DNA from: a virus
DNA: 64,000 bases
Reading direction: 5' to 3' (one strand)
IMG/VR virus record: IMGVR_UViG_3300035701_000010
Span: 1 to 64,000 of that record
Part shown: one piece after another, positions 7,271 through 48,065 of the stretch
Numbering within the stretch: position 1 is the stretch's first letter
How the letters are laid out: each line of letters begins with the position of its first letter
The notes under the pieces: generated by a model
What the model was told of the DNA's origin: nothing
Database searches by the model: none
Seen by the model: only the letters and a program-made list of their open reading frames with translations
Program-made: the position numbers and the translations under genes

Positions 7271-8602
7271 CTACTTTTTGTGCGCTTTGGCTTTTAGTTT
7301 TTCCTTAATTGATTCTTTTACGTCATCATCGTCGTCCTCTTCTTCTACGACTTTCTTTTTCTTCTTGGGTTTTTCATTGTCATCATCTTCTGCTAAAGAT
7401 TGTCGAATAGATTCCCTTATTTCATCATCTTCCATATCCTTAGTAACCTTTACTTCAAGATCGTTATTTTTGATGAAAGCCTTTAGCTCTGTTCGATCAA
7501 GAGATTCTAATATATCTTTTTCTTTAGAATTATCATCGTCATCATCGTCATCATCGTCTACGACCTTCTTTTTGGGCTTGTTATCATCGTCATCGTCGTC
7601 GTCATCTTCTTCTACGACCTTCTTGGCTTTCTTCTTGGGTTTGTCGTCATCATCGTCATCATCCTCTTCTTCTACAACTTTTTTGGCTTTCTTCTTTGGT
7701 TTGTCATCATCGTCACTATCTTTATCGATTTCCGTTTCTTCTGAACAAAGCTCAACAAATTCGCACTGTTTACACTTTTTCTTTTCTTCAAACTCACCAA
7801 AACATTCAGGCAAATCACCTTCATCTTGTTTGCCTTTCCATGATTCTTCTGTTTCCTGTGGGGTGGCTGGCTTAGTAATGTCAACAAGGTCTTTAAAATG
7901 TTCTGTGATATACTTTCTTATCGCTTTGGGAATTCTCCATTTGTATTCTTCCCCCGATTCAACGCTATAAGAGATGTTACCGAACGTTTTTCCCTTCTTA
8001 GTTACCTTGAAGTTCATGCCTTCTATGAGCGAAGTTGGATCAGTGTCGTCGCTAAAGTAATCTGCAACTTCGTCAATCCGCTTGCCACTTAACGCAGCAA
8101 TTTGAAGACCCCCTGCACAAGATTCGTTCCAAGAACAGCGTTGACATTTTCCAATAGGATCACCGTCCTCATCCTTTTCTATCTCACTCCAACATTCAGG
8201 GGGTGGGTTGTCTGCTACATAGTCTCCTTTTTCCGTCTTAGTGTAAAGTGGTGTTACATCCATCATCTGAAAAACGTTGCTGATGCTCACCTTTCTTCGG
8301 TCGGCAAGAAGTCGTTTTTTCTTGTCCTTGGATTGCGAGTCTACTTTGACCATCTTGCAAGAGTAGCAGTCCTTGCCAGTCCTGGTACAGGTTCCAACGC
8401 TTTTTGCGCTGGGTCCGAGATTAAAATGTTTTCTTTGAAGTTCCCATGGAAGATCGCGTCCTTCTGCTGGTGGCATCAGTCTAGCAAAATTGGCTCCACG
8501 CTTCCATTTAAAGTAAGTTGGCCCTCCTTCCCTTGATTGTTCTCTTCTTTGCTTGTCAGCAGAAACCGCCTTGACATCTGTTTTCCCCATTTTAATCGGC
8601 AT
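7271..8602 (-). CDS. Probable gp32-like ssDNA-binding protein with acidic/basic repeat tail
   Basis: 443 residues. Residues 27-85 (FKWKRGANFARLMPPAEG, then GPSAKSVGTC, C79, C82) resemble the zinc-bearing OB-fold start of phage gp32-type proteins. Two further cysteine modules, PECW...KCQRC...SC near 135-163 and PECFG...KCKQC...LC near 268-288, follow. From residue 290 the chain becomes alternating poly-Asp and KPKKKAKKVVEEE blocks, interrupted by a folded stretch (LESLDRTELKAFIKNN). An acidic tail is usual for SSBs, but this Lys-rich alternation is not. Neighbours RecA and a possible mediator support the call. The overall assignment is inferred. Confidence 0.65.
   Translation of the reverse strand: MPIKMGKTDVKAVSADKQRREQSREGGPTYFKWKRGANFARLMPPAEGRDLPWELQRKHFNLGPSAKSVGTCTRTGKDCYSCKMVKVDSQSKDKKKRLLADRRKVSISNVFQMMDVTPLYTKTEKGDYVADNPPPECWSEIEKDEDGDPIGKCQRCSWNESCAGGLQIAALSGKRIDEVADYFSDDTDPTSLIEGMNFKVTKKGKTFGNISYSVESGEEYKWRIPKAIRKYITEHFKDLVDITKPATPQETEESWKGKQDEGDLPECFGEFEEKKKCKQCEFVELCSEETEIDKDSDDDDKPKKKAKKVVEEEDDDDDDDKPKKKAKKVVEEDDDDDDDDNKPKKKVVDDDDDDDDDNSKEKDILESLDRTELKAFIKNNDLEVKVTKDMEDDEIRESIRQSLAEDDDNEKPKKKKKVVEEEDDDDDVKESIKEKLKAKAHKK
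7320..7730 (-). repeat. Low-complexity Asp/Lys coding repeat
   Basis: Imperfect repeats of roughly 60-65 bases encode poly-Asp followed by KPKKKAKKVVEEE. The same nucleotide pattern recurs at 23580-23815 and 24290-24560 in another gene, which makes recombination between the loci possible. Confidence 0.8.
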
Positions 8603-10623: not shown

Positions 10624-11232
10624 CTAGGTAAAAGAGTTAAAGCCATTCCGCCGTTCATCTTCCATCGTCTGTACTACTAATCCAAGAGATGTTATACTAT
10701 GAAATTGACCTCGTAGAATTTCTAGAGCCTTCTCGTAAATTGGCTTCACCGCTACGTTGCCCAACATGAGCTCCGTAAAACTAAAGAGCATGAGCTCAAA
10801 CTTATCCATAGCCTCAATGAGTTGTCCTTCTTTAGAATCATCTTTGGCTTGGCTCCAGACTTCTATATATTTTCTTGCAACCCTAGGATCTAATTCTGCG
10901 AAAAGCGTTTCTTCAACCACCTTGCAAATAACTTCAGAGAAATTGTATGAGCCGTGTTTAATAGGGTATAGAATATCACCAGTCACACATTCTTCTAAAT
11001 CATGAAGGATCGCCTTATAGAGAAGTTTCTTACAATCATAGAGTGGCTCGTCAAAATCGTAATCAGATGCTGAGATCCTTCTATTTTCTAGATCTGCAAA
11101 AAACAAAGCGTAGAAGGCGGTGTAGAATGAATGTTCCGCTACGTTGTACCGTTGAATGTGAAGAATGTTAGCACACCTTTCAATATTTGAAAGATTTCTA
11201 GTTCGCAATAAAAATTTTAGTTGGCCAATCAT
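10624..11232 (-). CDS. HD-domain phosphohydrolase (YfbR-like)
   Basis: 202 residues with the HD-superfamily pattern: VAEHSFY (His34), LHDLEE (His77-Asp78) and a distal Asp in IEAMDKFELM near 142. These match YfbR-type 5'-deoxynucleotidases, which dephosphorylate dNMPs, and fit a nucleotide-metabolism role beside a thymidylate-synthase-family gene in the same block. Substrate specificity cannot be read from the sequence. The ATG overlaps the preceding stop (ATGA), so it is translationally coupled. Confidence 0.75.
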   Translation of the reverse strand: MIGQLKFLLRTRNLSNIERCANILHIQRYNVAEHSFYTAFYALFFADLENRRISASDYDFDEPLYDCKKLLYKAILHDLEECVTGDILYPIKHGSYNFSEVICKVVEETLFAELDPRVARKYIEVWSQAKDDSKEGQLIEAMDKFELMLFSFTELMLGNVAVKPIYEKALEILRGQFHSITSLGLVVQTMEDERRNGFNSFT

Positions 11233-16245: not shown

Positions 16246-17451
16246 TTATTTTTCCCATTGTTGGAGAATATATCTTTGATCGTTGTCATCAAGATCAAAA
16301 TTTTCGGCAATTAAAGCGGCTATAACATCAGTTTCGTTACAGCGTACTCTATCTCTGTGAAGAAACTCTAGGTGTGGAATATAATAGCTTGGTTCTGCAC
16401 TTTCTTGATTAAGAACAAGAAAAGCCATAGATTCTTTGTCCATTCCTTTTTTATGAAAAAGAAAAGACAACGGAATATTAAGAAAGGTAATGAAAGTTTT
16501 AGCTGATTGGGGGAGCCAATTGAAAAATTTCTGTTGTAATATCATAACTTCTTCAAAAGAAGTTCTTACTTCTGGATCAAATGCCCCCACATTAATGGCT
16601 TTTGATAGAATATCCATAGCTAGATTAACGGCGTAATAGAATACTGCCAATGAGCCAAAGCGGAAAGACCTTGGTTTGTTTTTGCCAGAGTACATATCGT
16701 ATTTGAAAGGGCAACTGATAATCTTTTTAGCTCTTTCAAGCATTGTATCATAAATATGAAAAGAAGTAGCGTTGTGATAATACGCCCCGACTTCTATTTC
16801 TAGTATGCCAGCTAAGATTTCTTGAAGAAAGGTCCACTCAAACACATTGATGTTAAAGGCTCCCCACACTATGTCATTGCTTCGCATTTTTGTAAAGCAA
16901 TGAAGGTTTTCGTCTCTGATAAGAAATTGAACGAAAATAGTGCATGGTCTATCTTTTGTGAGCAAAGTGTAATCATAATCTTCTGGTTCAGGAACCACAA
17001 TTAACGCTTCTCTAGTAAACCTATCCCTAATTAGCATCTGTTCAACGTTGTAGATTTGATCAAAATATCCAGGGGTAGGAAGACTTGGAATAAAGTTCAT
17101 AACCATTCCAGGCTCTGTAGCCATCGTTGCTCTAATTCTCGGGCCATAGGCTCCTCTCCATATCTTTAAATCATCACTATAGTCAAAACAATTCGGAAGA
17201 AAATGATGAAGGAATTCTAAATCATTTCTTCCTGCAAAAACCCAAAGGGTTTCAGCGATAGTGGCTGCGATGTTGTTATATCGATATGGCCTTGCAAGCG
17301 CACGTTTTTTGGGATTTGTAATTACGAATGAATGGTCAACGAGTTCTATTGTTTCCTTTCCCCTGACTGTAACCTCTTTTCCATTGGCCAAGAGGTATTC
17401 AAGATTATCCATAAACCCTTGGCCAACGTTATCAGAAATTGGACTATACAT
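16246..17451 (-). CDS. Thymidylate synthase family protein
   Basis: 401 residues, longer than ThyA. Recognisable ThyA-family elements are DRPCTIFVQF near 174 (catalytic Cys), TKMRSNDIVWGAFNINVFE near 192 and the ligand-region HNATSFHIYD near 230. The Asn of the GxFN element is kept, as in dUMP-specific enzymes; dCMP hydroxymethylases carry Asp there. It could still be a dUMP hydroxymethylase making a modified base. About 110 C-terminal residues have no assigned role. RBS is AAGGAGAAC-like before ATG 17451. Confidence 0.75.
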   Translation of the reverse strand: MYSPISDNVGQGFMDNLEYLLANGKEVTVRGKETIELVDHSFVITNPKKRALARPYRYNNIAATIAETLWVFAGRNDLEFLHHFLPNCFDYSDDLKIWRGAYGPRIRATMATEPGMVMNFIPSLPTPGYFDQIYNVEQMLIRDRFTREALIVVPEPEDYDYTLLTKDRPCTIFVQFLIRDENLHCFTKMRSNDIVWGAFNINVFEWTFLQEILAGILEIEVGAYYHNATSFHIYDTMLERAKKIISCPFKYDMYSGKNKPRSFRFGSLAVFYYAVNLAMDILSKAINVGAFDPEVRTSFEEVMILQQKFFNWLPQSAKTFITFLNIPLSFLFHKKGMDKESMAFLVLNQESAEPSYYIPHLEFLHRDRVRCNETDVIAALIAENFDLDDNDQRYILQQWEK

Positions 17452-17460
17452 AAGTTCTCC

Positions 17461-18486
17461 TTAGTGAGTGAATTGACTTGCTGATTGGAGCACAAGGCTT
17501 CCACAAAGTCCTTCGGTTTTTCTTCTTTCCAAATACGGTTGCCGCTTGGCTAACCGAGTGGTGACATCCAAGGCTTCGTACAGTGGCACCGTGAGGTTAA
17601 GAATCTTTTTTTCTTTCTCATCCTCTTCCATCACTGATTGAACCAGTGTTTCTTGTTTATCAAATTCATCAGTCCCTATAGAAAGTCGAAGTTTTTTCAT
17701 AATCGACTCACCTGTTCTAAGGGCGGCAATAGGATTGTCCTTCATGGCTTTGAATGTGTCAGTCAATCGTTGGCTATTGCTTTTTATAGCATTGAATCCA
17801 GAATTAAACCGAACGAGAAAGTCTTGTGGCGAAATAGCCTTAACTCTAGAAAGTACAAATCCTTGAACCAAAGGCGATTTCTCAGCCATCACCATTCCAT
17901 TGGTACAAATCAGCCTGTTTAGAAAGGGGATGCCACTGGTTGGAAAATGTCCAATGTCGCTGTGCATAACTTCGCTGCCTATTTCTACCAAATCACCCTT
18001 TTCTACTTTGATTGGTCTAATAGAACTGTCAGCACAGAGATATCTTATCCCATAGTCACTGTAATTGCCTCTTTTAAACTCAAGGTTTTCCAGCTTCATG
18101 GCGGTGAAAAGATCTTGGTGGGGTGGAGCTACGGCAATGCTTGGTCTGGAAACGGCACGCACTTCTTTCCCTTGCCAATAGGTCCACATTTGGCTGTCCT
18201 GTGTGAATTCTTTGTTCATTCTATTGACATCTCTAATCAACATGTCGGTTGGGGAGGTTTCATAGTAGAATGATACAGGCATGTGAAACAATTTGAGAAG
18301 GCTCTTCATTGCAGAGTCTCTCATCTCATAGGTTTTTTTGCCTACTTTGAGCCCGTCTTCAGTAAGCTCCCAGTCTGAAAAGTTAACCAACTCGGCTCGT
18401 TTCCCTGTATCCTGCTCTTTCACATGGGTTGTAAAGTCCTTCAAATTCTTGGTGCTAAACACTTCGTTGTCTTTCAGTTCGATCAT
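17461..18486 (-). CDS. DUF932-like phage protein
   Basis: 341 residues starting MIELKDNEVFSTKNLKDF. The layout (SMKSLLKLFHMPVSFYYE, RPSIAVAPPHQDLF, a central CTNGMV segment and a helical C-terminus) resembles the DUF932/phage-plasmid protein family of unknown function. The family call is moderate. GGAGGGCAAGGCC precedes the ATG, and a weak promoter-like motif lies just upstream. Confidence 0.55.
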   Translation of the reverse strand: MIELKDNEVFSTKNLKDFTTHVKEQDTGKRAELVNFSDWELTEDGLKVGKKTYEMRDSAMKSLLKLFHMPVSFYYETSPTDMLIRDVNRMNKEFTQDSQMWTYWQGKEVRAVSRPSIAVAPPHQDLFTAMKLENLEFKRGNYSDYGIRYLCADSSIRPIKVEKGDLVEIGSEVMHSDIGHFPTSGIPFLNRLICTNGMVMAEKSPLVQGFVLSRVKAISPQDFLVRFNSGFNAIKSNSQRLTDTFKAMKDNPIAALRTGESIMKKLRLSIGTDEFDKQETLVQSVMEEDEKEKKILNLTVPLYEALDVTTRLAKRQPYLERRKTEGLCGSLVLQSASQFTH

Positions 18487-18513
18487 GGCCTTGCCCTCCT
18501 TTAAAAGTTAGTC

Positions 18514-19056
18514 TTAGATTTGGTTTACCTTACGCCTACAATATACCACAGCGACTGCTTCTTGGCTATACTTTTTTAAACTAAATCCGTGAAACTGTAA
18601 GTTTAGTAATTTGAGGGAACGAGGTTTATTGCGAGCAGATTCTGCAATTGCGCACTTCCCCTCTCTTCCAGGAAGAACTGGATTAACACAAAACTGGCAA
18701 GAGCGATGAACTAAGAAGAGTAAGGCATCATAATTATCTCTTCTTAAATATTGTAGAAGAATGGGATAGGCTTTTTGCGAGATCTTAATGGTATTCACGT
18801 CCGCTAATCGTTTTCCATGAAGCTTAAGATCGCATTCAAAATGAAATGGTACGCTGCACCATGGACATTTAGAACTTGGATTAAAGTGGCCATTAAATTC
18901 GTAAATATCCATAAGCTTACCATCCAACCAATGGGTAAATAGTTCCTCACTAAAACCTCCCTCTTTGAAATTATATAGAAAACATCCTTTGGTTTCAAAT
19001 TGATCCACTTTAATCGTTGGATTTTTAATGAATAAGCGATCTGATAGGGTAAACAT
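18514..19056 (-). CDS. Hypothetical protein with Cys pairs
   Basis: 180 residues. CPWC near 64 and CQFC near 116 may form a zinc site. The rest is beta/alpha with basic patches (RRKVNQI at the end). The start overlaps the end of the neighbouring membrane protein gene by 32 bases. No family recognised. Confidence 0.55.
   Translation of the reverse strand: MFTLSDRLFIKNPTIKVDQFETKGCFLYNFKEGGFSEELFTHWLDGKLMDIYEFNGHFNPSSKCPWCSVPFHFECDLKLHGKRLADVNTIKISQKAYPILLQYLRRDNYDALLFLVHRSCQFCVNPVLPGREGKCAIAESARNKPRSLKLLNLQFHGFSLKKYSQEAVAVVYCRRKVNQI
18540..18568 (-). promoter_or_regulatory. Weak promoter-like motif upstream of DUF932-like gene
   Basis: A TATATT -10 preceded by GTGG, like the other promoters in this window, but without a good -35. 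It lies in the 3' end of the preceding gene. Confidence 0.3.
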
Positions 19057-19354
19057 TTTGTTCTCCTACTGGTTTTTTGAAATAAAAAGTAACATGGTCT
19101 GAGCTAATATGAACATGGTAGTATTCGAATCCATCTGCAATTGTTTTAGTCCAGTCATCAAAAAGAATATTAGAAATTGAATAGGTAAGCATTCGTATTT
19201 TGTTTTCTCTTTTGATTTTTTCTATATGCTCTAAAAATTCTAGTGGGAGTTCTCTTTCTTTATGTAGATGCATATAGATAGCCCAAACAGAAAGCAAGCT
19301 ACATCCAAGAATAAGAAATCCTAGAACAATAAGGAGTTGATAAAATTGGTTCAT
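19025..19354 (-). CDS. Single-pass membrane protein, 109 aa
   Basis: An N-terminal hydrophobic stretch LLIVLGFLILGCSLLSVWAI at 8-27 is followed by a cytoplasmic or periplasmic domain of about 80 residues with no motif. It could anchor a small soluble domain at the membrane. Unknown function. Confidence 0.55.
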   Translation of the reverse strand: MNQFYQLLIVLGFLILGCSLLSVWAIYMHLHKERELPLEFLEHIEKIKRENKIRMLTYSISNILFDDWTKTIADGFEYYHVHISSDHVTFYFKKPVGEQNVYPIRSLIH

Positions 19355-19360
19355 AGATTT

Positions 19361-19525
19361 TTATCCTTCGTCACATGCATCAGAATATCCGGCTCGGTAG
19401 CCATTTTTCCAACAATCCCACCACGGCCAATAGTCACCTTTATGTTTTAGAGATATTCCTTGTTCTTCAGCATACTTTATAAACTCATCCCATTGAAATT
19501 TATCTGCACTTTTTGGTCTACGCAT
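19361..19525 (-). CDS. Hypothetical protein, 54 aa
   Basis: ATG at 19525 overlaps the DUF4326 gene end. The protein begins MRRPKSADKFQWDEF and has a Trp-rich centre (YWPWWDCWKNGYRAGY), ending acidic. It is too short for family assignment; the open frame fills the gap between two genes exactly. Confidence 0.5.
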   Translation of the reverse strand: MRRPKSADKFQWDEFIKYAEEQGISLKHKGDYWPWWDCWKNGYRAGYSDACDEG

Positions 19526-19835
19526 TTTTTTTGCTCCTTTCTTTTAGGAGTTCTATAAAGACATCTCCATGACATGGCTTGGGTCTGCAAAAACATCCCA
19601 GCACCTTATCTTTAAGTTCATCAAGGTGCTCTAGAATCCATTTTCTTCGTTCTGGTTCTATTTCTTCTAAATCCTTATCTCCATTAAGCCATCGCCTACA
19701 ATCTTTGATCACTAATGGTCGATCTCTTTCTCGTTGCATGATGAAGGGATTTCCCCAATGCTTGTTTCCTCTTCTTCTCCCAATAAACACGTCGAACTGG
19801 TCTCCATTCTTAACGTTGACGACAGTGGTAGCCAT
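19518..19835 (-). CDS. DUF4326 domain protein
   Basis: 105 residues from ATG 19835 behind GGAGGAAAAC. The chain carries FIGRRRGNKHWGNPF near 16-30, an Arg/Glu-rich middle and the typical C-terminal CFCRPKPCHGDVF. This matches DUF4326, a small family common in phages with unknown, possibly nucleotide-related, function. The Cys/His cluster may bind metal. Confidence 0.8.
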   Translation of the reverse strand: MATTVVNVKNGDQFDVFIGRRRGNKHWGNPFIMQRERDRPLVIKDCRRWLNGDKDLEEIEPERRKWILEHLDELKDKVLGCFCRPKPCHGDVFIELLKERSKKNA

Positions 19836-19864
19836 GTTTTCCTCCATAGTTTTAGGCTAAAGAG

Positions 19865-20518
19865 TTAATTGTTTTTATGGCGGATTAGAAGCATGGTGAC
19901 GTTGGTAAGATAATTTTGGACAGGGTACTCGTATTCTATTCCAAGTTTTTTAAGCAATTCATAAACGTCTATTCCTATGGCTTCCAAGCTTGGCATTCCG
20001 CGATGTTTACAGGGAGGATTATCTCGGTTGGGGCATTTATGTCCACAAAGGTCACAGTGTCCTGGAATCAAAGCAAAGGCTCTGTATCCTTTCTCTTTGA
20101 AAATATTTCTATAGCCGTTCATAAGTTGGCTGATCGATCTGCTTTGTCCTGCTTCCGTACCTTTGAGCTGCTTGCCTTTCTTGGGTATTAGATTAATGTG
20201 GGACAACTCTTTCTTGTCAATCTTCCAAGATTTGCTGCCGTCATTTTTCCACACCAATAACACAGCCACTTCAAAACGGTCAAGAAAAGTTCTGGTGCTG
20301 GCAAGGGTAGCAAACCAAGGGTAGGTGAGCCAGAGATAGGGGGGACAGAGTATAGCTCGCTTATAAAGTCCGCATTGAAAGCATTTTAAACGAGCCGTTA
20401 AGCCGATTGGAATGATTGAAGGTTTTATGTACCTGATTTCAGAAAGTGATTCTGGAAATCCAAGTTCTTTTTGAACAATTCTCTCAATCTTTCGGTCTGG
20501 AAACATAATTGCATCCAT
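19865..20518 (-). CDS. DUF2284-like metal-binding protein
   Basis: 217 residues with a CFQCGLYKRAILCPP motif near 46-60 and CDLCGHKCPNRDNPPCKHRG near 155-174, followed by SLEAIGIDVYELL. The pattern is that of DUF2284, predicted metal or iron-sulfur proteins. Its 5' end overlaps the GIY-YIG reading frame by 94 bases and no clear ribosome binding site precedes ATG 20518 or the in-frame ATG 20506. Location beside a radical SAM gene hints at redox or cofactor work; that is inference. Confidence 0.7.
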   Translation of the reverse strand: MDAIMFPDRKIERIVQKELGFPESLSEIRYIKPSIIPIGLTARLKCFQCGLYKRAILCPPYLWLTYPWFATLASTRTFLDRFEVAVLLVWKNDGSKSWKIDKKELSHINLIPKKGKQLKGTEAGQSRSISQLMNGYRNIFKEKGYRAFALIPGHCDLCGHKCPNRDNPPCKHRGMPSLEAIGIDVYELLKKLGIEYEYPVQNYLTNVTMLLIRHKNN

Positions 20519-20787
20519 GAGTAAATGATAATAATTGCTGGTTTAATATCTTTCTTTGTTTCCTTTACCAAGTGTTCTAGTTTTAAAGCTTTTGATTGGG
20601 TCATGAAACAAGATACGCAAACAACGCTTTTCACTTTCTTGGCTCTGGTATATTTGGCTCCACGACCATCCATATGCTTCTTTAATCTATTAATAAAGTC
20701 GTTGGTCGCTCCACAGTAATAACTTCCATCTTCACATTCTAACAGATAGACTTGCCAATCTTGTATTTCTGTTTGATGGTTGATCAT
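20425..20787 (-). CDS. GIY-YIG nuclease-like protein
   Basis: 120 residues. WQVYLLECEDGSYYCGATND at 11-30 is a GIY-YIG variant (VYL...YYCG), followed by RLKKHMDGRGAKYT with a conserved Arg and a basic segment. Stand-alone members resemble the UvrC/YhbQ type and could cut DNA branches or act as a homing nuclease. The last 31 residues read into the DUF2284 gene and may not be conserved. ATG overlaps the radical SAM stop (ATGA). Confidence 0.75.
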   Translation of the reverse strand: MINHQTEIQDWQVYLLECEDGSYYCGATNDFINRLKKHMDGRGAKYTRAKKVKSVVCVSCFMTQSKALKLEHLVKETKKDIKPAIIIIYSWMQLCFQTERLRELFKKNLDFQNHFLKSGT

Positions 20788-21818
20788 CTTTCTAAGACTC
20801 TTTTGACTACAACCAATTTATCTCTTGGCATCCAAGATCGTTCAACATACTCTGTGTAGTGTGGTTCTTTTAAGGATTTTTCAATTACTCTCCATGTTTC
20901 TTTGGTTGGCTTTTCAAGCGTTTCCTTGCCCATTCGGTCTGGCAGTAAGCCTACTCTATAGGACCGTGTATTGCATCCGTAACAGGGACTGAATGTTCTA
21001 TATCCGTAGAACAAAGCTCTTCGAGCCGCTTTGAATTGAGGACCTTGCCAGATGTCATTGATTGACTGGTGCAAGACATTACCGCATTTATAGATACCAA
21101 CCCAATCCATGCAGCATAGAGCCACATTGCCATTCCATCGAATACTAACTTCTCTAAATGGTCTAGCGCATCGATCCCCTTGCAATGAAAAATCTCTTGG
21201 AAAAGCGCAAGCGGCATGGGTCATTAATTTTCCATGCGTTCCTCCTGATTCATGACTTACATCTTCTGTAATGACAGTATGGTGTTCGGAAGGCTTGCGT
21301 CTCCGATGCGGGTTAGCTTTTTGATCTTTTGGATAGTTGTAGAAAGGGTAAGGTCCTTTATATCTTGCCAGTATTCTTTCTACTGTTTTCATCCGATCAT
21401 AATTGTCTAAAAGAATAACATTAATCCCCGCATCCATCAAGGCATTGATTTCGATGGTTGTCGCACGCAACAGGCCTCCCCCATTGGTGGTGACCATAAG
21501 AGAAGATTTAGGAAGACGTTTTCTAAAAATAGAAACAAGCTTAGGAAGATCAGGATGCATGGTTGGTTCTCCATGCATCGCAAACTCTACCCTTGGGTTC
21601 CATCCTGCCTCAATGATTTGATGTGCAATTTCGATGGCCGTATTTATTTCCATAAATTTAAAAGGCCCGCTGTTGGTTCCATGAAATCTTTCAAGCCCAT
21701 TAGCTTCATTATCCCGAATACTCTGAATACCACAGAAGCTACAAGCCAGTTGGCAACCTTCTACGGGTTCGATTTGAACAGCGTTTGGCGAATCTTGATA
21801 AGTGGAAATTGATTTCAT
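20784..21818 (-). CDS. Radical SAM enzyme with SPASM-like C-terminus
   Basis: 344 residues. The [4Fe-4S] motif CQLACSFCG is at 22-30 (CxxxCxxC), EFAMHGEPTMHPDL follows as the GxP-type SAM-binding region, and a C-terminal Cys-rich stretch includes CARPFREVSIRWNGNVALCC and CYGCN, like SPASM auxiliary-cluster domains. It should generate a 5'-deoxyadenosyl radical to modify a nucleotide, peptide or sugar. Neighbours are a glycosyltransferase and a methyltransferase. The substrate is unknown. Confidence 0.85.
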   Translation of the reverse strand: MKSISTYQDSPNAVQIEPVEGCQLACSFCGIQSIRDNEANGLERFHGTNSGPFKFMEINTAIEIAHQIIEAGWNPRVEFAMHGEPTMHPDLPKLVSIFRKRLPKSSLMVTTNGGGLLRATTIEINALMDAGINVILLDNYDRMKTVERILARYKGPYPFYNYPKDQKANPHRRRKPSEHHTVITEDVSHESGGTHGKLMTHAACAFPRDFSLQGDRCARPFREVSIRWNGNVALCCMDWVGIYKCGNVLHQSINDIWQGPQFKAARRALFYGYRTFSPCYGCNTRSYRVGLLPDRMGKETLEKPTKETWRVIEKSLKEPHYTEYVERSWMPRDKLVVVKRVLER

Positions 21819-21834
21819 AAGATTTTCTCCAAAA

Positions 21835-22641
21835 TTAAGTTAGATCTTTTGAAGACTCGTAAGCTTTCTTCCATTGAATTCTTACATCGAATCGCTCGCG
21901 CATCCCGTCCCATCCCGTTTTGCTCACCTTAGTAACTACAGTTACAAAGTCTGGATGTAATTGTGCTAATCCTTTAGCGCATTGCTCTTGAAGCCTAGCA
22001 GTTCTATAAGTGCTGCACCCTCCAGGTTTGCCAATCATTTGATCTACCGTGCAATCGGTTAGAACCATATTTCTGTATCCTACTTCCAAAAATTGCAATG
22101 TAACGTCAAAGTCCTCCATTAATTGTAGCCGGTTAAAGACTGCTCCTATTTTGTGGTAGACCCTGACGTCGATGCCATGGACATTAAGCTGCCGTGTGCA
22201 GGTGACAAACTCTTTAGGGAACAATCTGTTGTTGCCAGACCGTTGGCTCACTCCGACCAATGGGTAGTCTTCTTCTCTTAATATTCTGAAAATTTCTTTA
22301 AGAGTTCTCCAAATTTCTTCTGGCTTCATATCACGAAGATGGTAAGACTTGTCTGACTTTCTAATGGCCCATTTGTTAAGATCATCATCCAACATGATAA
22401 TTCTCTTAACCCCGATTCTTTTAGCCCATCCCATAATCCATTGCCGCTTGTTGGTAATTCCTTCTGTTGGAGAAGCGACGGCCCAATAGCCTTTCTTTCT
22501 ATGCTTACTAATTTCTTCTTCAGGGCACACAAGAGTGACAGCATATCTTAACATGTCGCTTTCATTCCATTTAAGAATATCATAGGTGAGTTGGTTGCCA
22601 ACTCTTCCTCTTGTCGGAATCACTATGCGTTCTTCTGCCAT
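21835..22641 (-). CDS. GT-A-type glycosyltransferase-like protein
   Basis: 268 residues. RIVIPTRGRVGNQLTY at the N-terminus and RIIMLDDDLNKW near 85 (the DDD metal and sugar-nucleotide motif) indicate a GT-A fold. The C-terminal half has HKIGAVFNRLQLMEDFDVTL and CTVDQMIGKPGGCSTY. The arrangement recalls the phage DNA-modification glycosyltransferases described with TET/JBP systems, but this cannot be settled without a search. A target of host surface sugar is also possible. Confidence 0.65.
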   Translation of the reverse strand: MAEERIVIPTRGRVGNQLTYDILKWNESDMLRYAVTLVCPEEEISKHRKKGYWAVASPTEGITNKRQWIMGWAKRIGVKRIIMLDDDLNKWAIRKSDKSYHLRDMKPEEIWRTLKEIFRILREEDYPLVGVSQRSGNNRLFPKEFVTCTRQLNVHGIDVRVYHKIGAVFNRLQLMEDFDVTLQFLEVGYRNMVLTDCTVDQMIGKPGGCSTYRTARLQEQCAKGLAQLHPDFVTVVTKVSKTGWDGMRERFDVRIQWKKAYESSKDLT

Positions 22642-22644
22642 AAA

Positions 22645-23496
22645 TTACTCCGTTTTGAGCATTAAAGCCATCCATTGCCTACAATGAGATACATGGTAAG
22701 TCAGCCCTGCCATATTTCCAATGAAGGAAAATGGGAGTGAAGATTTTAATTCTCTGTATAGCGAATCTTTGATTGGTTTTCTTGGAAGGATGCCAACAAA
22801 TTCTCTAAAAATAAAATCCTCTTGAGCAAACTCTCTAAATTCTTCAAATTCCCATTCGTAGTGGTGGCTGCTTTCTGAGTCTTTCCATGCCCATTGTTCT
22901 CCTTTGTTTTTGTCTGGATTTGGAGAGGATAGAATAGCAATGCCATCGCTTTTAAGATTATTATAAATATTTTTCATAAAAGTAGAAGCTTTGTTCATAG
23001 GGATGTGTTCTAGAACTTCCATGGCGACAATGGCATCGGCTTTTTCTGGCATTTTAAGAGGATAACCAAGGTCTGCGATAACGGCATGGTATTCGTCATT
23101 GGCTTTGTGGGGGAGTTGTGGTTCCAATCTTCTATGGTCTGCATCGACACCGTAGTAGTGAAGTCTAGGCCATCCAAAATAATTGCCGTTGTTGCGCCAA
23201 AAGGTGTAAAGCTGACCCCTAGAGCACCCAAAGTCTACAAGCACTCTGTAATTGGCCTTGCTCTTGCTAAAGTATTCTCTAAGCCAATTTAAGGCAATAA
23301 TGAATCTAAAGAACTGAGCCACTTCAAATGTGTTAAACCATCGCATCTTAATTAGATTGAAGGTATTGTCATTTAATTTAGATTCAGTTTTGAAATACGT
23401 TTCTGAACGAAGGTCGAATAGTTCTGGTTGATAAGTTTCTAGCAGATGGAGTGGTTTGTCGGCAATGGCATGTCTTGGAGCAGGGTGTCTCTTCAT
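22645..23496 (-). CDS. Class I SAM-dependent methyltransferase
   Basis: 283 residues from ATG 23496, which follows GGAGGTTGT. Motif I is VLVDFGCSRGQLYTF near 85, an acidic motif II is YYGVDADHRRL near 117, and IVAMEVLEHIPMNKAS near 158 is motif IV/post-IV of small-molecule methyltransferases. It lacks DNA-methylase DPPY/NPPF motifs, so a nucleotide, sugar or protein substrate is more likely. It is the promoter-proximal member of the cluster with the glycosyltransferase and radical SAM enzyme, three bases from the next gene. Confidence 0.8.
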   Translation of the reverse strand: MKRHPAPRHAIADKPLHLLETYQPELFDLRSETYFKTESKLNDNTFNLIKMRWFNTFEVAQFFRFIIALNWLREYFSKSKANYRVLVDFGCSRGQLYTFWRNNGNYFGWPRLHYYGVDADHRRLEPQLPHKANDEYHAVIADLGYPLKMPEKADAIVAMEVLEHIPMNKASTFMKNIYNNLKSDGIAILSSPNPDKNKGEQWAWKDSESSHHYEWEFEEFREFAQEDFIFREFVGILPRKPIKDSLYRELKSSLPFSFIGNMAGLTYHVSHCRQWMALMLKTE

Positions 23497-23510
23497 ACAA
23501 CCTCCAAATC

Positions 23511-23546
23511 TTAAAAAGGGGCGGTGCTGTTCTGCACACGCCCCTT
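23511..23546 (-). terminator. Terminator after repeat-tailed protein gene
   Basis: A GC-rich stem (AAGGGGCG with CGCCCCTT, extended by GTGC with GCAC around one bulged base) closes on a 6-base loop and is followed on the minus strand by TTTTTAAG. It separates the gene ending at 23574 from the methyltransferase gene. Confidence 0.8.
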
Positions 23547-23573
23547 CGAGTTTAAGAAACACAAGATAATTGC

Positions 23574-24719
23574 TTAGTCGTCATCCTCTTCTTCAACTAC
23601 TTTTTTGGCTTTCTTCTTTGGTTTGTCATCATCATCATCGTCGTCATCTTCTACGACTTTTTTGGCTTTCTTCTTGGGTTTCTCATCCTCGTCATCATCC
23701 TCTTCAACTACTTTCTTCTTCTTAGGCTTATCGTCATCATCGTCCTCTTCTTCTTCTACGACTTTTTTGGCTTTCTTCTTGGGCTTGTCGTCATCGTCGT
23801 CGTCATCGTCGTCATCCTTCGCCTTGCCCTTTTTGGCCTTTTCTTGAAGTTTTTCAGCGAGGGCTTTGCCTTTGGCCTTTCGTTCCTTGGAGGCTTCGGT
23901 GGCTGCTTTCAAAGCAACCTTGATCATCTTGCCAAAGTTTTCTGGAAGTTCTTTTTCAAAAGCAAAGGCGGCGTACCCATCGTAAGGCTCTTTAGCTTTC
24001 TGCAGCTTTCCGAAAGGAACTGTTCCCTTCACTTCAAGCTCTTTCGGAGTCAATCTGTTAAAGAGAACAGCTAGACCAGACTCTGCACCTTTGGCTTTCA
24101 CGATGGACAGTACGATCACATTGTTTTGTTTGAAGATTGTGATAGAGGTTTTGTGGGTTACTTCGAGGTCGTAATCTTCAGCAATTTTGTCAACGGCTTT
24201 CTTGTACTTGATGGGGATGATGCCATTGTCGATGACGTCGGTACGAGTCTTTTTAAAAGACTTCATCTCTTTTGCGACCTTCTTCTTGGGCTTGTCATCA
24301 TCGTCATCGTCGTCGTCATCTTCTTCTACGACTTTCTTGGCTTTCTTCTTGGGTTTGTCATCATCATCGTCATCATCCTCTTCTTCTACGACTTTTTTGG
24401 CTTTCTTCTTGGGCTTGTCATCATCGTCATCGTCGTCGTCATCTTCTTCTACGACTTTCTTGGCTTTCTTCTTGGGTTTGTCATCGTCATCATCATCCTC
24501 TTCTTCTACGACTTTCTTCTTTGGCTTGTCATCGTCGTCATCGTCGTCATCGGCCTTTATTTTCTTGGCCGCAACTTTGGCGCATTTTGAATCTTCATCA
24601 CCGCCAAAGGCACATGCTTCCGTGCAGTCATCTTCATCTGCATCATACATTCCGAAGCACTGAGGTTTCTTCTCTTCCTTCTCTTCCTTGTCTTTTTTCT
24701 TGTCCTTGTCCTTAGCCAT
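23574..24719 (-). CDS. Repeat-tailed protein with CFG-Cys module
   Basis: 381 residues from ATG 24719 behind AGGAGGGAACAACA. Near residue 20 a PQCFGMYDADEDDC...C...C module resembles the cysteine modules of the SSB-like protein at 7271. Blocks of poly-Asp followed by KPKKKAKKVVEEE flank a central folded domain of about 150 residues (DVIDNGIIPIKYKKAVDKIA to KALAEKLQEKAK) and end the protein. It has its own promoter, 5' hairpin and terminator, suggesting high and separate expression. A nucleic-acid or scaffold role is possible; function is unknown. Confidence 0.65.
   Translation of the reverse strand: MAKDKDKKKDKEEKEEKKPQCFGMYDADEDDCTEACAFGGDEDSKCAKVAAKKIKADDDDDDDDKPKKKVVEEEDDDDDDKPKKKAKKVVEEDDDDDDDDDKPKKKAKKVVEEEDDDDDDDKPKKKAKKVVEEDDDDDDDDDKPKKKVAKEMKSFKKTRTDVIDNGIIPIKYKKAVDKIAEDYDLEVTHKTSITIFKQNNVIVLSIVKAKGAESGLAVLFNRLTPKELEVKGTVPFGKLQKAKEPYDGYAAFAFEKELPENFGKMIKVALKAATEASKERKAKGKALAEKLQEKAKKGKAKDDDDDDDDDDKPKKKAKKVVEEEEDDDDDKPKKKKVVEEDDDEDEKPKKKAKKVVEDDDDDDDDKPKKKAKKVVEEEDDD
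24290..24560 (-). repeat. Tandem Asp/Lys coding repeat
   Basis: Four to five near-identical units of about 60-66 bases encode poly-Asp plus KPKKKAKKVVEEE. A second set lies at about 23580-23815. The units closely match those in the SSB-like gene near 7.3-7.7 kb. Confidence 0.85.
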
Positions 24720-24751
24720 TGTTGTTCCCTCCTGAAAAAGTGTTTTAGTTT

Positions 24752-24769
24752 CGAGTAGCAAATTACTCG
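24752..24769 (-). promoter_or_regulatory. 5' UTR hairpin
   Basis: CGAGTA and TACTCG form a 6-bp stem with a 6-base loop just inside the transcript start expected from the promoter at 24779-24807. It may stabilise the 5' end of the mRNA for the repeat-tailed protein. Confidence 0.5.
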
Positions 24770-26858: not shown

Positions 26859-28185
26859 TTGTTCCCTCCCTTCTGGTTTCTACAACTTCTATAAATTTTA
26901 TGGTCATTATCCTAAAGAGTAAGTCTACGAGAATACCAATTTTACCTTCTTCATCTCTATTTTTATCAAGCCATAATTCTGCCTGCCTGTCATCTTCTTG
27001 TTCTTGGGTTTGACTGATAGTAATAACAATGTCAGAAAGTCTTGCCTTGTCATAGCTTTCACTGAAAGACTCTTGTCTTAGTCGAGTGCCCCTAGCAGAA
27101 GCTTTGGCATGGGTTGTGCAAAGGATTGGAATATCTCTTATTTCTGTCTGTCTTTTAATGTCGGTATAAACTCGCTTTACTCCTAATCTAAAGGATTCTT
27201 GATGTTTACTCGGAAGAAGATGGTCACCAGAATCGTAAATGATCATGTCTGGAATCCACCCTTCTCTTATTTGTATTGTTTTCAATAGCCCTTCAATATC
27301 TGCAACAGTAACGGTTTCTATAGGTGCGTGAATTACCTTCAAGTAGCCTTGCCTTAGTCGTCTTAGATTTCTCATAAGGTGGTTGGCTACAGCAAGGTCT
27401 GTCTTATTCCAGGAATAGTTTTTAAGAAGATGATACGGGTATCGAACAAACCGGCTATCATATCTAGCCAACGTTTGTTTCTCTGTATTTTCAAAAACAA
27501 AATGAGCTACTTTAAACCAAGAATTAACCGCAAAATACCCAAAGTTGACTGAAACGATAGATTTTCCAACCCCAGAAGTTCCCATAATGAGCACAAGGGT
27601 AGGAGTCTTGGCGGCAATGATTGCTCTTTCATCAAAAGGCCCAAATCCCATTTTAAGAAGCTTAGGTTTGGTGTCCAAAAAGGTATCTTTACGGGCACGT
27701 TGTCTTGTTTTCCACTCCTCGAATACAGAATGAACATTAAAATCGAGTCTAGAAATATCAAATAAGAATGAAGATTTAATCAAATTTTTGGCTTTGTCTA
27801 CTTCACCTTCAAACCCTAGGCTCGCGGCTTCCTCCAGCAATTTGCCGAATTGTTGTTTTTCGGCCCACTCGCCAACTTCTTTAATTAAATGTTTTGGCGA
27901 TTCAACTTCGCGTTCGAATAGTGGAATGATTTGATTGCGGTAGGCCGATTGAGTTTCTTCATCCTTGATATGCTTTTTGATGTCTATTAGAATAGATTTC
28001 TTTGAAGGTAATTCACCTTCAAATTCTTGGATATGCTCAAAGATTCTTTTGCATAAGAACCTATAAGCGGCAGTAGAAAATAGTGATGAGTCTATGACGG
28101 GCTGAAGAGTGTAAATGGATTGTTGATCTTTCAACATTAGTGAAAGAATATCTTTCTGTAAAATTTTCTCTAATTTTCCACTCAT
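26848..28185 (-). CDS. dnaB: DnaB-type replicative helicase
   Basis: 445 residues. An N-terminal helical domain (about 1-130) precedes the RecA-like core with Walker A GTSGVGKS at 202-209, Walker B MIIYDSGD near 300 and a THAKASARGTRL segment near 340 as in motif H3. It should unwind DNA at the fork with the DnaC-like loader encoded about 1.5 kb upstream. The start overlaps the uracil-DNA glycosylase stop. Confidence 0.9.
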   Translation of the reverse strand: MSGKLEKILQKDILSLMLKDQQSIYTLQPVIDSSLFSTAAYRFLCKRIFEHIQEFEGELPSKKSILIDIKKHIKDEETQSAYRNQIIPLFEREVESPKHLIKEVGEWAEKQQFGKLLEEAASLGFEGEVDKAKNLIKSSFLFDISRLDFNVHSVFEEWKTRQRARKDTFLDTKPKLLKMGFGPFDERAIIAAKTPTLVLIMGTSGVGKSIVSVNFGYFAVNSWFKVAHFVFENTEKQTLARYDSRFVRYPYHLLKNYSWNKTDLAVANHLMRNLRRLRQGYLKVIHAPIETVTVADIEGLLKTIQIREGWIPDMIIYDSGDHLLPSKHQESFRLGVKRVYTDIKRQTEIRDIPILCTTHAKASARGTRLRQESFSESYDKARLSDIVITISQTQEQEDDRQAELWLDKNRDEEGKIGILVDLLFRIMTIKFIEVVETRREGTNAN

Positions 28186-28736
28186 TTCCTTATCCCAGCT
28201 ATCGCTTTAGCTTTTTTAAGATCCTTAATAAATTCTTTCAAACGGTCTTTGTCATGTGATCTGGCCAAAAAAGAAGGATGGTAGGTATAAAGCAAGAGTT
28301 GGTTATGCCATTTCTCTGTCTTGCCTCTGTTTTGAATAACAGGTTCCTCTTTTCCAGTTAAGAATTTCCAAGGCACACGCCCCAATACTACTATCACCCG
28401 TAGGTTAGGAAGCGCATCGATTTGGCGATAGAGGTACTTGCTACAAGCTTCGAATTCAGATGGTAACGGAGGTCTATTTTGTGGCGGTCTGCATTTCACC
28501 AAATTGAGAATAATTACCTTTCTTTTAAGACGCAGAAGCCCTAAAATTTTTCTTAGCAGTCGGCCAGCTTTTCCAACGAAGGCAATGCCTGTTTCATCTT
28601 CTTCTCTTCCTGGGCCTTCACCTATGAACCCAAGTTGAGCGGTTGGAAATCCGTCACCCCATACGACTTGCGTTCTTGTTTTCCAAAGAATACAGTCCCT
28701 ACACTGATAATTGACAACGTCTTTAGGATATTTCAT
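28182..28736 (-). CDS. Family 4-type uracil-DNA glycosylase
   Basis: 184 residues. The active-site motif GEGPGREEDETGIAFVGKAG at 39-58 and HPSFLAR near 154 match iron-sulfur UDGs. Cys11 and Cys14 (CRDC) with C81 and C97 (VKCRP, EACSKY) would hold the [4Fe-4S] cluster. It removes uracil from DNA, so the phage genome is presumably not uracil-substituted. It is coupled to helicase and DnaJ-like genes by short overlaps. Confidence 0.9.
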   Translation of the reverse strand: MKYPKDVVNYQCRDCILWKTRTQVVWGDGFPTAQLGFIGEGPGREEDETGIAFVGKAGRLLRKILGLLRLKRKVIILNLVKCRPPQNRPPLPSEFEACSKYLYRQIDALPNLRVIVVLGRVPWKFLTGKEEPVIQNRGKTEKWHNQLLLYTYHPSFLARSHDKDRLKEFIKDLKKAKAIAGIRK

Positions 28737-43322: not shown

Positions 43323-43607
43323 CTATTGTTTTGTCCATCCTCTTGCTTCCATGCACCGAGTCATTGCGTTATTGAAGCTTAATGCTTCGGTAATTCCTGC
43401 TCCGATTCCGGAACCCATTGCCCCTCCCAACGTGGCAGGGGTCATCGTTGACCCGCTAAAAGAAGCGGCGTAACTGCGAGCAGTCATTTCGCATCCAAAT
43501 TTATCACTTTCAAAATCTGCTGTGGTGGCTCCAGATTTGGCGAACATAACTTTTCCCCCACACCCAAGACACGATAACACAATCAACAGCATCAATATAC
43601 TTTTCAT
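43323..43607 (-). CDS. Lipoprotein with glycine-zipper segment
   Basis: 94 residues from ATG 43607 behind GGAGGAGCAAGA. A signal peptide ends at lipobox LSCLGC. The mature part has DKFGCEMTARSYA, a Gly-rich transmembrane-like stretch GGAMGSGIGAG, and CMEARGW near the end. This pattern resembles small outer-membrane lipoproteins of Gram-negative hosts, and may be a lysis or superinfection-related protein. Confidence 0.75.
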   Translation of the reverse strand: MKSILMLLIVLSCLGCGGKVMFAKSGATTADFESDKFGCEMTARSYAASFSGSTMTPATLGGAMGSGIGAGITEALSFNNAMTRCMEARGWTKQ

Positions 43608-44128
43608 TCTTGCTCCTCCTCCCACTTCTTTAAAAGGTTAAAGGTCTTTTTGAAGAGTAAATAGGTCACCATCTTGATGCCAGGAATAGAGCTTTCTCTT
43701 GGACCGGCCACATTGATAACGAGTGGGGCTTTCACGATCCCATAAATATATTTAATGGTTCCTGCAATGTGATACTCCTGCATCTTATGCGTCGGGCTGT
43801 AGACGAGAAGACGATGCTTTCTTAACTCTTCAGCCAATTTGCCTGTTAATTTGGTTCCAGGACCTCCTTTCTGATCAGGATCAATAATGATTGTGAGATC
43901 TGAATCTTGAACATTTTGTTTAGTTCTGGGTGACCATTTTTCAGAAGCATGTTCTTTCAGACCATAAATAGATCCAAGTTTAGGGCTAGGTCCATCTTCA
44001 GTCTTAAACCCTTTAGGTGCCGTTCCGCCTGTTTTTAATCCACTTTTCTTGGCTGCTTTTAAAGCTCCGAAGTCAACCCCTGTTTGGCCGCCGGATATAA
44101 TTCTTCTAATGTATTTTGTGGTTCCCAT
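43604..44128 (-). CDS. YpsA-related SLOG-type protein (putative molybdenum carrier family)
   Basis: 174 residues with IISGGQTGVDFGALKAA near 10-26, TGGTAPKGFKTEDGPSP, LTIIIDPDQKGGPGTKLT and the C-terminal INVAGPRES, the hallmark of the circularly permuted YpsA/SLOG family that binds nucleotide-like ligands. Pfam calls relatives molybdenum carrier proteins without proof. In phages it may process or sense nucleotides. It overlaps the lipoprotein gene start by four bases. Confidence 0.8.
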   Translation of the reverse strand: MGTTKYIRRIISGGQTGVDFGALKAAKKSGLKTGGTAPKGFKTEDGPSPKLGSIYGLKEHASEKWSPRTKQNVQDSDLTIIIDPDQKGGPGTKLTGKLAEELRKHRLLVYSPTHKMQEYHIAGTIKYIYGIVKAPLVINVAGPRESSIPGIKMVTYLLFKKTFNLLKKWEEEQE

Positions 44129-47540: not shown

Positions 47541-48065
47541 TTAACGGCTTCCTAAGCATCTAGACTTAGGATCCTTGAAAGCGGTTAGTCTTAAGGTCTC
47601 CAATATTCCCAGTTCACTCGCTCCTCCAATACTTTTCTCTCCTTGCCATAATCCCCATTCGTTCAATTTCCAATTTCTGGATTTAGCCACCCTGCGACAA
47701 TAGATGTTAAACTCCTTGTCTCCTGTAAAATGGAGTATGGAGGCTCCGATAGAGAATTTGTTGGTGATCAGAAAATCGAATTGGACATGGTTGTGAATAA
47801 GAGATACTTTCTTATCGCCAGCCGAAATAATTTGATCTGCAAAGGCTCTTAGGTTGTGAAGAAAGACATCAAGAATCTTTGGGATCACTACAAAATCTAG
47901 ATCATGGACTATTCGCTCTTCTCTCCTGTAAGAACCGCAGGCGATAAGATTGACGGAATAAGTGGCAAATCTATGTCTTATTTCTTCAACAGCCATTTGC
48001 GCTTCATCTAATGTTAACGTTCTTACTTCGTCAATGGGGTCGATTTGTTGATGGATTGTTTCCAT
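47541..48065 (-). CDS. DNA polymerase X-like nucleotidyltransferase
   Basis: 174 residues. CGSYRREERIVHDLDFVVIP near 43-62 gives the GS-helix turn and DxD catalytic pair (Asp55, Asp57), with a third Asp in VQFDFLITN (Asp97). The C-terminus (ILHFTGDKEFNIYCRRVAKS, NEWGLW) matches the thumb of Pol beta/X enzymes. It lacks the 8-kDa and fingers domains, so it is a minimal polymerase, possibly for gap filling with the UDG and ligase encoded in this window. Confidence 0.8.
   Translation of the reverse strand: METIHQQIDPIDEVRTLTLDEAQMAVEEIRHRFATYSVNLIACGSYRREERIVHDLDFVVIPKILDVFLHNLRAFADQIISAGDKKVSLIHNHVQFDFLITNKFSIGASILHFTGDKEFNIYCRRVAKSRNWKLNEWGLWQGEKSIGGASELGILETLRLTAFKDPKSRCLGSR

Follow-up and report, generated by a model that had tools for sequence, protein, structure and literature searches.

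A BtrN-like radical SAM enzyme beside a TAGT glycosyltransferase in a probable viral module for DNA-base hypermodification

Several described systems resemble, each in part, a gene cluster that we analyzed in bases 1-64000 (hereafter the window) of virus record IMGVR_UViG_3300035701_000010, which has 97,656 bases in full. The cluster encodes a thymidylate synthase (TS) homologue, a glycosyltransferase of the TAGT family, a radical SAM enzyme resembling BtrN and a methyltransferase. In thymidine hypermodification of the M6/ViI type, 5-hydroxymethyldeoxyuridine (5-hmdU) comes from a TS homologue, one that shares its PHROG type with that of the window, and is changed after replication; the window record differs in having TAGT and BtrN-like radical SAM genes and no HMUDK_hel. 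Base J of kinetoplastids is made by JBP1/2 and JGT, and the intermediate that we propose for the window would likewise be a glycosylated 5-hydroxymethyluracil. TET/JBP-TAGT systems have the TAGT family in common with the window, and the same radical SAM family adjoins TET in some records, but the window record has a TS homologue in the place of TET/JBP. BtrN, a dehydrogenase of butirosin synthesis, shares its fold, its radical-cluster motif and four auxiliary cysteines with the window enzyme, whereas the gene context is different and the identity is only about 21-24% over the aligned residues.

The TAGT family is widespread, and solitary TAGTs were reported in 288 of 753 phage genomes (PMC13216743). 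T6-type TAGTs act on glucosylated 5-hydroxymethylcytosine (5-hmC) and share PF20691 and the GT-A fold with the window glycosyltransferase (PMC13216743), which differs in accompanying a dUMP-type TS homologue and a radical SAM partner. In pelagiphages, genes for a TS, aG/PT-PPlase1, a 5'-deoxynucleotidase and a beta-glucosyl-HMC-alpha-glucosyltransferase occur together, and the word 'radical' has no occurrence in the available text of that report (PMC9599517). In their HTVC023P-type cluster, the TS, the nucleotidase and the TAGT-type glycosyltransferase lie near PolA, as in many of the radical SAM loci described below (PMC9599517). The window differs in having the radical SAM gene and no gene of the aG/PT-PPlase/HMUDK_hel type. 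Radical SAM cassettes were described in pelagimyophages (PMC7029224), and one account gives glucosylated 5-hmdU as unreported in phage genomes as of 2019 (PMC6449724). The literature that we searched, which did not include Iyer 2013 and Lee 2022, showed no radical SAM enzyme as a partner in the glycosylation of phage DNA and no glucosylated hydroxymethyluracil in phages. As these are the most relevant papers, the novelty of the radical SAM enzyme is claimed within that limit: it is a new component of an otherwise known kind of module.

The four genes that carry the argument are as follows.

16246-17451, minus strand: TS homologue, likely of the phage dUMP-hydroxymethylase type (PF00303, 1e-18; phrog_5131, 6.8e-54; phrog_3676, 4.5e-53)
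20784-21818, minus strand: BtrN-like radical SAM/SPASM (twitch) enzyme (PF04055, 7e-9; SPASM PF13186, 1.9e-13)
21835-22641, minus strand: TAGT-family GT-A glycosyltransferase (PF20691, 1.5e-18; phrog_842, beta-glucosyl-HMC-alpha-glucosyltransferase, 3.5e-46)
22645-23562, minus strand: Hen1-like methyltransferase (Methyltransf_23 PF13489, 1.3e-11)

An earlier note, made from the sequence alone, had proposed that these genes and their neighbors build a modified base or sugar. The protein families and their linkage support that proposal, and the locus is very probably a phage module for DNA-base hypermodification, which would yield sugar-bearing bases. We favor, with moderate confidence for the scheme as a whole, the following pathway. 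The TS homologue would make 5-hydroxymethyl-dUMP, so that phage DNA would be synthesised with 5-hydroxymethyluracil in it. Once replication has taken place, a sugar would be added by the TAGT to the hydroxymethyl group, and the base would become a glycosyl-hydroxymethyluracil like base J. The radical SAM enzyme, by means of a 5'-deoxyadenosyl radical and an auxiliary iron-sulphur cluster, would oxidise a hydroxyl of the sugar to a ketone or an aldehyde, and the O-methylation of a sugar hydroxyl may follow through the Hen1-like methyltransferase. DNA modified in this way would be protected against host nucleases as well as against enzymes whose target is simple glucosylated DNA.

The window glycosyltransferase is a member of the TAGT family. 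The earlier note had suggested profile searches against modification families including TAGT, and the match to PF20691 reached 67.9 bits against a cut-off of 27.5. Its residues D85 and D86, the acidic donor-binding motif of the GT-A fold, were invariant in an alignment of 27 sequences. The AlphaFold2 model (pLDDT 93.7) matched GT-A enzymes; no solved TAGT was among its structure matches, which carries no weight against membership. By its family, the enzyme would transfer a sugar to a hydroxymethyl-pyrimidine, or to the glucoside of one, in DNA.

BtrN was the closest solved protein to the radical SAM enzyme, both with the single sequence (4.5e-7) and with a profile (1.3e-20). It was also the closest by structure (Foldseek 2.6e-12; VIA Z 21.4 over 230 residues at 3.0 A), and the next protein had a Z of only 14.2. 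Eight cysteines (C22, C26, C29, C217, C235, C236, C279 and C282) were present in 48 of 48 sequences. Three of them form the CxxxCxxC radical-cluster motif (C22/C26/C29), and C217, C235, C279 and C282 align to the four auxiliary-cluster cysteines of BtrN. No NCBIfam radical SAM model reached its cut-off with the window enzyme. BtrN oxidises an alcohol of the cyclitol 2-deoxy-scyllo-inosamine to a ketone (PMC9012708). From its sequence and model, we propose that the window enzyme is a sugar dehydrogenase of the BtrN type; the chances that its substrate is the sugar seem about even.

To see where this enzyme family occurs, we counted its gene neighborhoods. In IMG/VR, 47 loci were found with the single sequence and 156 stretches with a profile, and 151 of the latter encode a relative; 80 were kept, and the other 71 relatives stood outside the analysis. 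Together with four loci from the single-sequence scan (L064-L067), two loci from a genome collection of 84,980 species and the window itself, 87 loci were compared. The two genome-collection loci, on contigs of Actinomadura rayongensis (L082) and of a Patescibacteria metagenome-assembled genome (L081), may be proviral or phage; one lies near TET and the other near TS and HMUDK_hel. No relative was found by tblastn at 1e-5 among 50,697 phage records, and megablast of 12 kb of window DNA against the same records gave no match.

The first set of profiles revealed TAGT with TS in 68 of the 87 loci, TET alone in eight, TS alone in six, TAGT alone in one, TAGT with TET in one and none of them in three, so that TAGT was present in 70. 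When three further groups of glycosyltransferase-type genes were added and a limit of 10 kb was set, the counts were 74 loci with glycosyltransferase and TS, five with glycosyltransferase and TET, four with TET and no glycosyltransferase, two with glycosyltransferase and neither TS nor TET, and two with none. Thus, 83 of the 87 loci have an enzyme for hydroxymethyl-pyrimidine, either TS-type or TET/JBP, and the number is 84 when the whole record of L109, whose TS lies elsewhere, is counted. The other three are L105 and L137, which end 35-40 bases past the radical SAM gene, and L066, a contig of 4.5 kb; searches of these whole records found neither TS nor TET. They are also the three of nine records tested in which TET was not confirmed by Pfam above the cut-off (6/9 were). 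TS and TET were not seen together in any of the 87 loci. At 70% identity the radical SAM genes fall into 41 lineages, of which 34 have TS, five have TET and two have neither; as one of these two is L109, TS or TET accompanies 40 of the 41 lineages. This constancy of partners elsewhere is in line with the module proposed in the earlier note.

The genes also stay together over large divergence. In the nearest relative, L134, the methyltransferase (39% identity), TAGT (47%), radical SAM enzyme (48%) and TS (38%) are all kept, that is, at 38-48% identity. The gene order is kept as well, including an acidic repeat protein, and polymerase, HD nucleotidase and RecA-like genes come next. Identities of the other proteins are 32% (GT9-like), 50% (primase), 45% (GIY-YIG), 59% (DUF2284), 45% (a 180-aa open reading frame, ORF) and 47% (a 341-aa ORF, L134:14232-15254). 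L109, another relative of the window, retains the radical SAM gene with a GT-B-like gene beside it; a methyltransferase gene is missing beside the radical SAM gene, and no TAGT was found in the record. In L064, one TAGT adjoins the radical SAM gene and a second adjoins TS.

The idea that every radical SAM locus without TAGT has another glycosyltransferase was supported only in part, by matches below cut-off (L128 and L109 to Glycos_transf_1, L158 to TAGT) and by motifs recognised by eye in two groups, GTB1 and GTB3. Neither group matched anything in Pfam, PHROG or PDB, and their GT-B call is by eye from motifs. Proteins of this GT-B-looking kind stand beside radical SAM, TS or TET genes (L155:8954-9955, L111:8921-9961, L130:4837-5841 and L067:6938-7975) and possibly represent a new family of DNA glycosyltransferases. 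A GTB1-type protein was not found in the window record, in a search that had no positive control. TET/JBP oxygenase (PF12851) gave no match at E 1 in this record, which may be incomplete, nor did searches for thymidylate kinase and dUTPase find either family there. In L151 (7989-9908), two tandem radical SAM genes are accompanied by two TAGT genes, a duplication that suggests two successive sugar steps.

For the identity of the base, the TS homologue is the main witness. It matched PF00303 with 67.9 bits (cut-off 24.3), and its scores for PHROGs 5131 and 3676 were far better than for phrog_160 (3.8e-34). One or other of the former two is also the best PHROG for the TS of SPO1L5, PhiW-14, Molly, M6 (gp58) and locus L028, whereas ThyA and T4 gp42 score best in phrog_160. 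Its closest solved relatives were CMP 5-hydroxymethylases (4.6e-24), followed by plain thymidylate synthases (1.3e-7). The active-site alignment showed that Glu58, the catalytic Cys146, Asn177, His207 and Tyr209 are retained, and the Asn typical of dUMP enzymes, to which the earlier note had drawn attention, is indeed Asn177. Trp80 is absent, as it is from the SPO1 and PhiW-14 enzymes. The sorting with phage hydroxymethylases, the retained Asn177 and the missing Trp80 make 5-hydroxymethyl-dUMP the likely product; on this basis, the enzyme is likely a dUMP hydroxymethylase, and we consider it probable that the modified base is 5-hmdU, with uracil rather than cytosine as the parent. Relatives of the window radical SAM gene also occur with a TS that shares 42% identity with M6 gp58 (336 residues compared) and that is adjoined by an HD nucleotidase and PolA. 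Single-sequence scans of viral contigs with the window TS and with the window methyltransferase gave no relatives.

Among cultured phages, Maribacter phage Molly_1 has the closest TS (41%). In its record (L078:4288-9047), genes for a UDP-glucose/GDP-mannose dehydrogenase, an NAD-dependent epimerase, a beta-glucosyltransferase and the TS are adjacent, and this cluster is a candidate for making a base that bears a uronic acid.

The methyltransferase is the weakest assignment. Its solved relatives are Hen1 proteins (2.4e-6), and the motifs ExxEH and HxxEW, which we take to be metal-binding in Hen1, are aligned and are both kept in L134. The NCBIfam equivalog bacter_Hen1 was matched with 31.9 bits against a cut-off of 340, which indicates a related domain in a different equivalog. 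No match was found by tblastn among the 50,697 phage records. As Hen1 methylates a ribose hydroxyl of RNA, O-methylation of a sugar can be guessed by analogy, although it is a doubtful assignment, and a role on RNA is as possible.

Several observations weigh against the pathway given above. Gene families, linkage and conserved residues are what the analysis shows, and all of the chemical steps are deduced. The model of the radical SAM enzyme is of moderate quality (pLDDT 77.6, pTM 0.82). The tree placed the window TS loosely, with weak support (86/68), and its position 147 is Thr, as in T4 gp42, instead of the Asn of SPO1, M6-type relatives and PhiW-14. The kinase-type HMUDK_hel (PF18723) of the relatives had no match at E 1 in the window record, which may be incomplete. 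Four TET-type loci have no glycosyltransferase by the profiles used. We also made a control scan centered on TS, in which 80 loci were kept from at least 600 matched stretches; 50 of these loci were flanked by at least 4 kb in each direction. A TAGT gene lay close to TS in 17 of 20 loci with the radical SAM gene and in four of 30 loci without it (P = 7e-7), these loci being related to one another. Counted by lineage, the difference was 6/9 against 4/19 at 70% identity (P = 0.035) and was lost at 60% (P = 0.25). For glycosyltransferase-type genes of any kind it was gone (9/9 lineages with the radical SAM gene and 16/19 without). Therefore, a special link between radical SAM and TAGT genes is only moderate after correction for relatedness, glycosyltransferases being usual in such clusters. 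TAGT and TS without radical SAM are common (L002-L011), so the radical SAM enzyme looks like an optional tailoring step.

The same module might instead use the radical SAM enzyme on the base, either on the hydroxymethyl group (giving 5-formyluracil) or to install or rearrange a group, with the TAGT working in parallel. This is unlikely, although BtrN-type chemistry suits any carbinol and the constant partner of the radical SAM gene is the hydroxymethyl-pyrimidine enzyme (84/87), the type of glycosyltransferase varying among relatives; the four TET loci mentioned above point the same way. Gene distances argue for the sugar. In all 81 loci that have a glycosyltransferase-type gene, the nearest one shares the strand of the radical SAM gene, and it lies within 250 bp of that gene in 64 of the 87 loci. 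Among the 79 loci with both kinds of partner, the glycosyltransferase is nearer than TS/TET in 65, farther in nine and tied in five (by lineage, 30, six and one of 37). Where TS is more than 3 kb off (11 loci), a glycosyltransferase-type gene always lies 0-720 bp from the radical SAM gene. The TAGT-radical SAM pair also occurs away from TS and, in L151, is duplicated jointly. Radical SAM isomerases occur in M6-like pathways, but kinship of the window enzyme with M6 gp53, taken here as the radical SAM gene of M6, was not supported, the best match (0.024) not being significant.

An alternative that keeps the sugar as the substrate is that the radical SAM enzyme acts first, on the nucleotide-sugar donor (turning UDP-glucose, for instance, into a keto-sugar nucleotide), and that the TAGT then transfers the altered sugar to DNA. 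The close pairing of the two genes would fit this order, as would the lower-scoring solved relatives of the enzyme, which include SpeY and DesII from sugar/cyclitol pathways. However, TAGTs without radical SAM are common, as noted above, so these use ordinary donors, and oxidation before transfer seems improbable.

It is similarly improbable that the base is cytosine, with TS making 5-hydroxymethyl-dCMP and the module building glycosylated 5-hmC. Thr147 would fit cytosine, and the best solved relative of the TS is a CMP hydroxymethylase. The use of glucosylated hmC by T6-type TAGTs would suit this reading (PMC13216743), and the TS relative of phage LuckyBarnes is a predicted dCMP-hydroxymethylase according to its authors (PMC6588365). 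In metagenome data, positions 177 and 147 were the two with the strongest link to the state of modification (PMC8670742). Against cytosine, Asn177 is kept in the window, unlike in T4 gp42 and its relative L012, and replacement of this Asn by Asp is known to change the substrate from dUMP to dCMP (PMC8670742); the PHROG sorting also places the window TS with dUMP enzymes.

That the glycosyltransferase, radical SAM enzyme and methyltransferase modify a host surface glycan or lipid while TS supplies dTMP only is very improbable. In its favor, TS lies 3.3 kb from the radical SAM gene, a GT9-like ORF of the heptosyltransferase family (the sole hint of a surface glycan) is close by, and radical SAM and glycosyltransferase genes are known as marine-phage auxiliary genes with no DNA link (PMC7150976). 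Against it stand the TAGT family of the glycosyltransferase, the hydroxymethylase type of the TS and the presence of TS/TET in 40 of 41 radical SAM lineages. The earlier note had named close matches to surface-polysaccharide proteins as the finding that would speak against its proposal; Pfam, PHROGs, NCBIfam and PDB gave no such match for these three proteins.

Uracil glycosylated on its hydroxymethyl group and then oxidised on the sugar is thus the product that we favor, and the remaining genes of the locus can be considered beside it.

10624-11232, minus strand: YfbR-like HD 5'-deoxynucleotidase (PF12917, 4.5e-24)
17461-18486, minus strand: 341-aa ORF with weak matches to phrog_1362 and DUF6046, adjoining TS in L134 also
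19518-19847: DUF4326 protein (4e-19; phrog_464, 1.5e-21), between the DUF2284 gene and TS
19865-20518, minus strand: DUF2284, a cysteine-rich predicted metal-binding protein (PF10050, 7.3e-23)
20425-20787, minus strand: ORF with a GIY-YIG nuclease domain (PF01541, 6.6e-16), with a homologue in L134
25920-26858, minus strand: GT9-like ORF of the heptosyltransferase family (PF01075, 2.4e-5; 24.2 bits, cut-off 22)

The six genes named in the earlier note (TS, DUF2284, GIY-YIG, radical SAM, glycosyltransferase and methyltransferase) all lie on the minus strand where it had placed them, each above its curated Pfam cut-off. The tight packing that it described was also found: 3 bp separate the methyltransferase and TAGT genes and 16 bp the TAGT and radical SAM genes, the radical SAM and GIY-YIG genes overlap by 4 bp, and the GIY-YIG and DUF2284 ORFs overlap by 94 bp. 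The genes are transcribed in the order methyltransferase, TAGT, radical SAM/SPASM, GIY-YIG, DUF2284, DUF4326, two ORFs with no assignment, the 341-aa ORF and TS. The note did not mention the four ORFs between DUF2284 and TS. Its end of the methyltransferase at 23496 is near an in-frame ATG at 23499, but the ORF extends to a GTG at 23562. After TS, 3 bp on, comes a 1,197-aa ORF that, to judge by eye, encodes the alpha chain of DNA polymerase III. Replication genes surround the block, namely a Toprim-like ORF and two kinds of ORF recognised by eye as DnaB-like and RecA-like.

The note had also counted GIY-YIG and DUF2284 among the partners of the module, and this did not hold in general. DUF2284 exceeded its cut-off in only two of 46 other radical SAM-bearing records, and with the comparison of relatives both were rejected as core parts. 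DUF2284 appears to be accessory, possibly a redox partner, and the GIY-YIG ORF is probably outside the pathway. The GT9-like ORF, kept in L134 and L109, is a possible second glycosyltransferase near the module. YfbR-type genes adjoin TS in relatives of the locus, and genes like that for the YfbR-like HD 5'-deoxynucleotidase are often found with TS-type modification clusters in phages.

Some further genes were noted on the way. The window encodes a protein of the Uracil-DNA glycosylase superfamily (28182-28736; PF03167, 2e-32), which is notable if the phage carries a modified uracil, a cpYpsA SLOG-family protein (43604-44128; 4.5e-33) and a DNA polymerase beta palm-thumb protein (47541-48065; thumb 4.9e-13). 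Two ORFs (23574-24761 and 7271-8602) contain long Asp/Lys repeats (DDDDKPKKKAKKVVEE-like), and their non-repeat parts are kept in relatives. In the control scan, a stand-alone HMUDK_hel protein, with no kinase domain (e.g. L028:8043-8936), accompanied TS in all 50 flank-filtered loci of the 80 kept from at least 600 stretches. L122 (5483-7215) has two such proteins in tandem, and the window record has none.

If the pathway is correct, viruses would make a base-J-like base, and the radical SAM enzyme would be the first radical enzyme to tailor a sugar attached to DNA. Oxidised sugars would then join the known DNA bases, as candidate counter-defence modifications and with enzymes for selective DNA labelling. 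We suggest, tentatively, that glycosyltransferases paired with BtrN-like radical SAM enzymes may be widespread in viruses and may give the 5-hydroxymethyluracil of DNA an oxidised sugar (a ketone or an aldehyde), the radical SAM family serving TET/JBP systems also. In this way, a single tailoring family would link TS-based and TET/JBP-based systems. For part of the solitary TAGTs, the radical SAM partner offers a testable chemistry.

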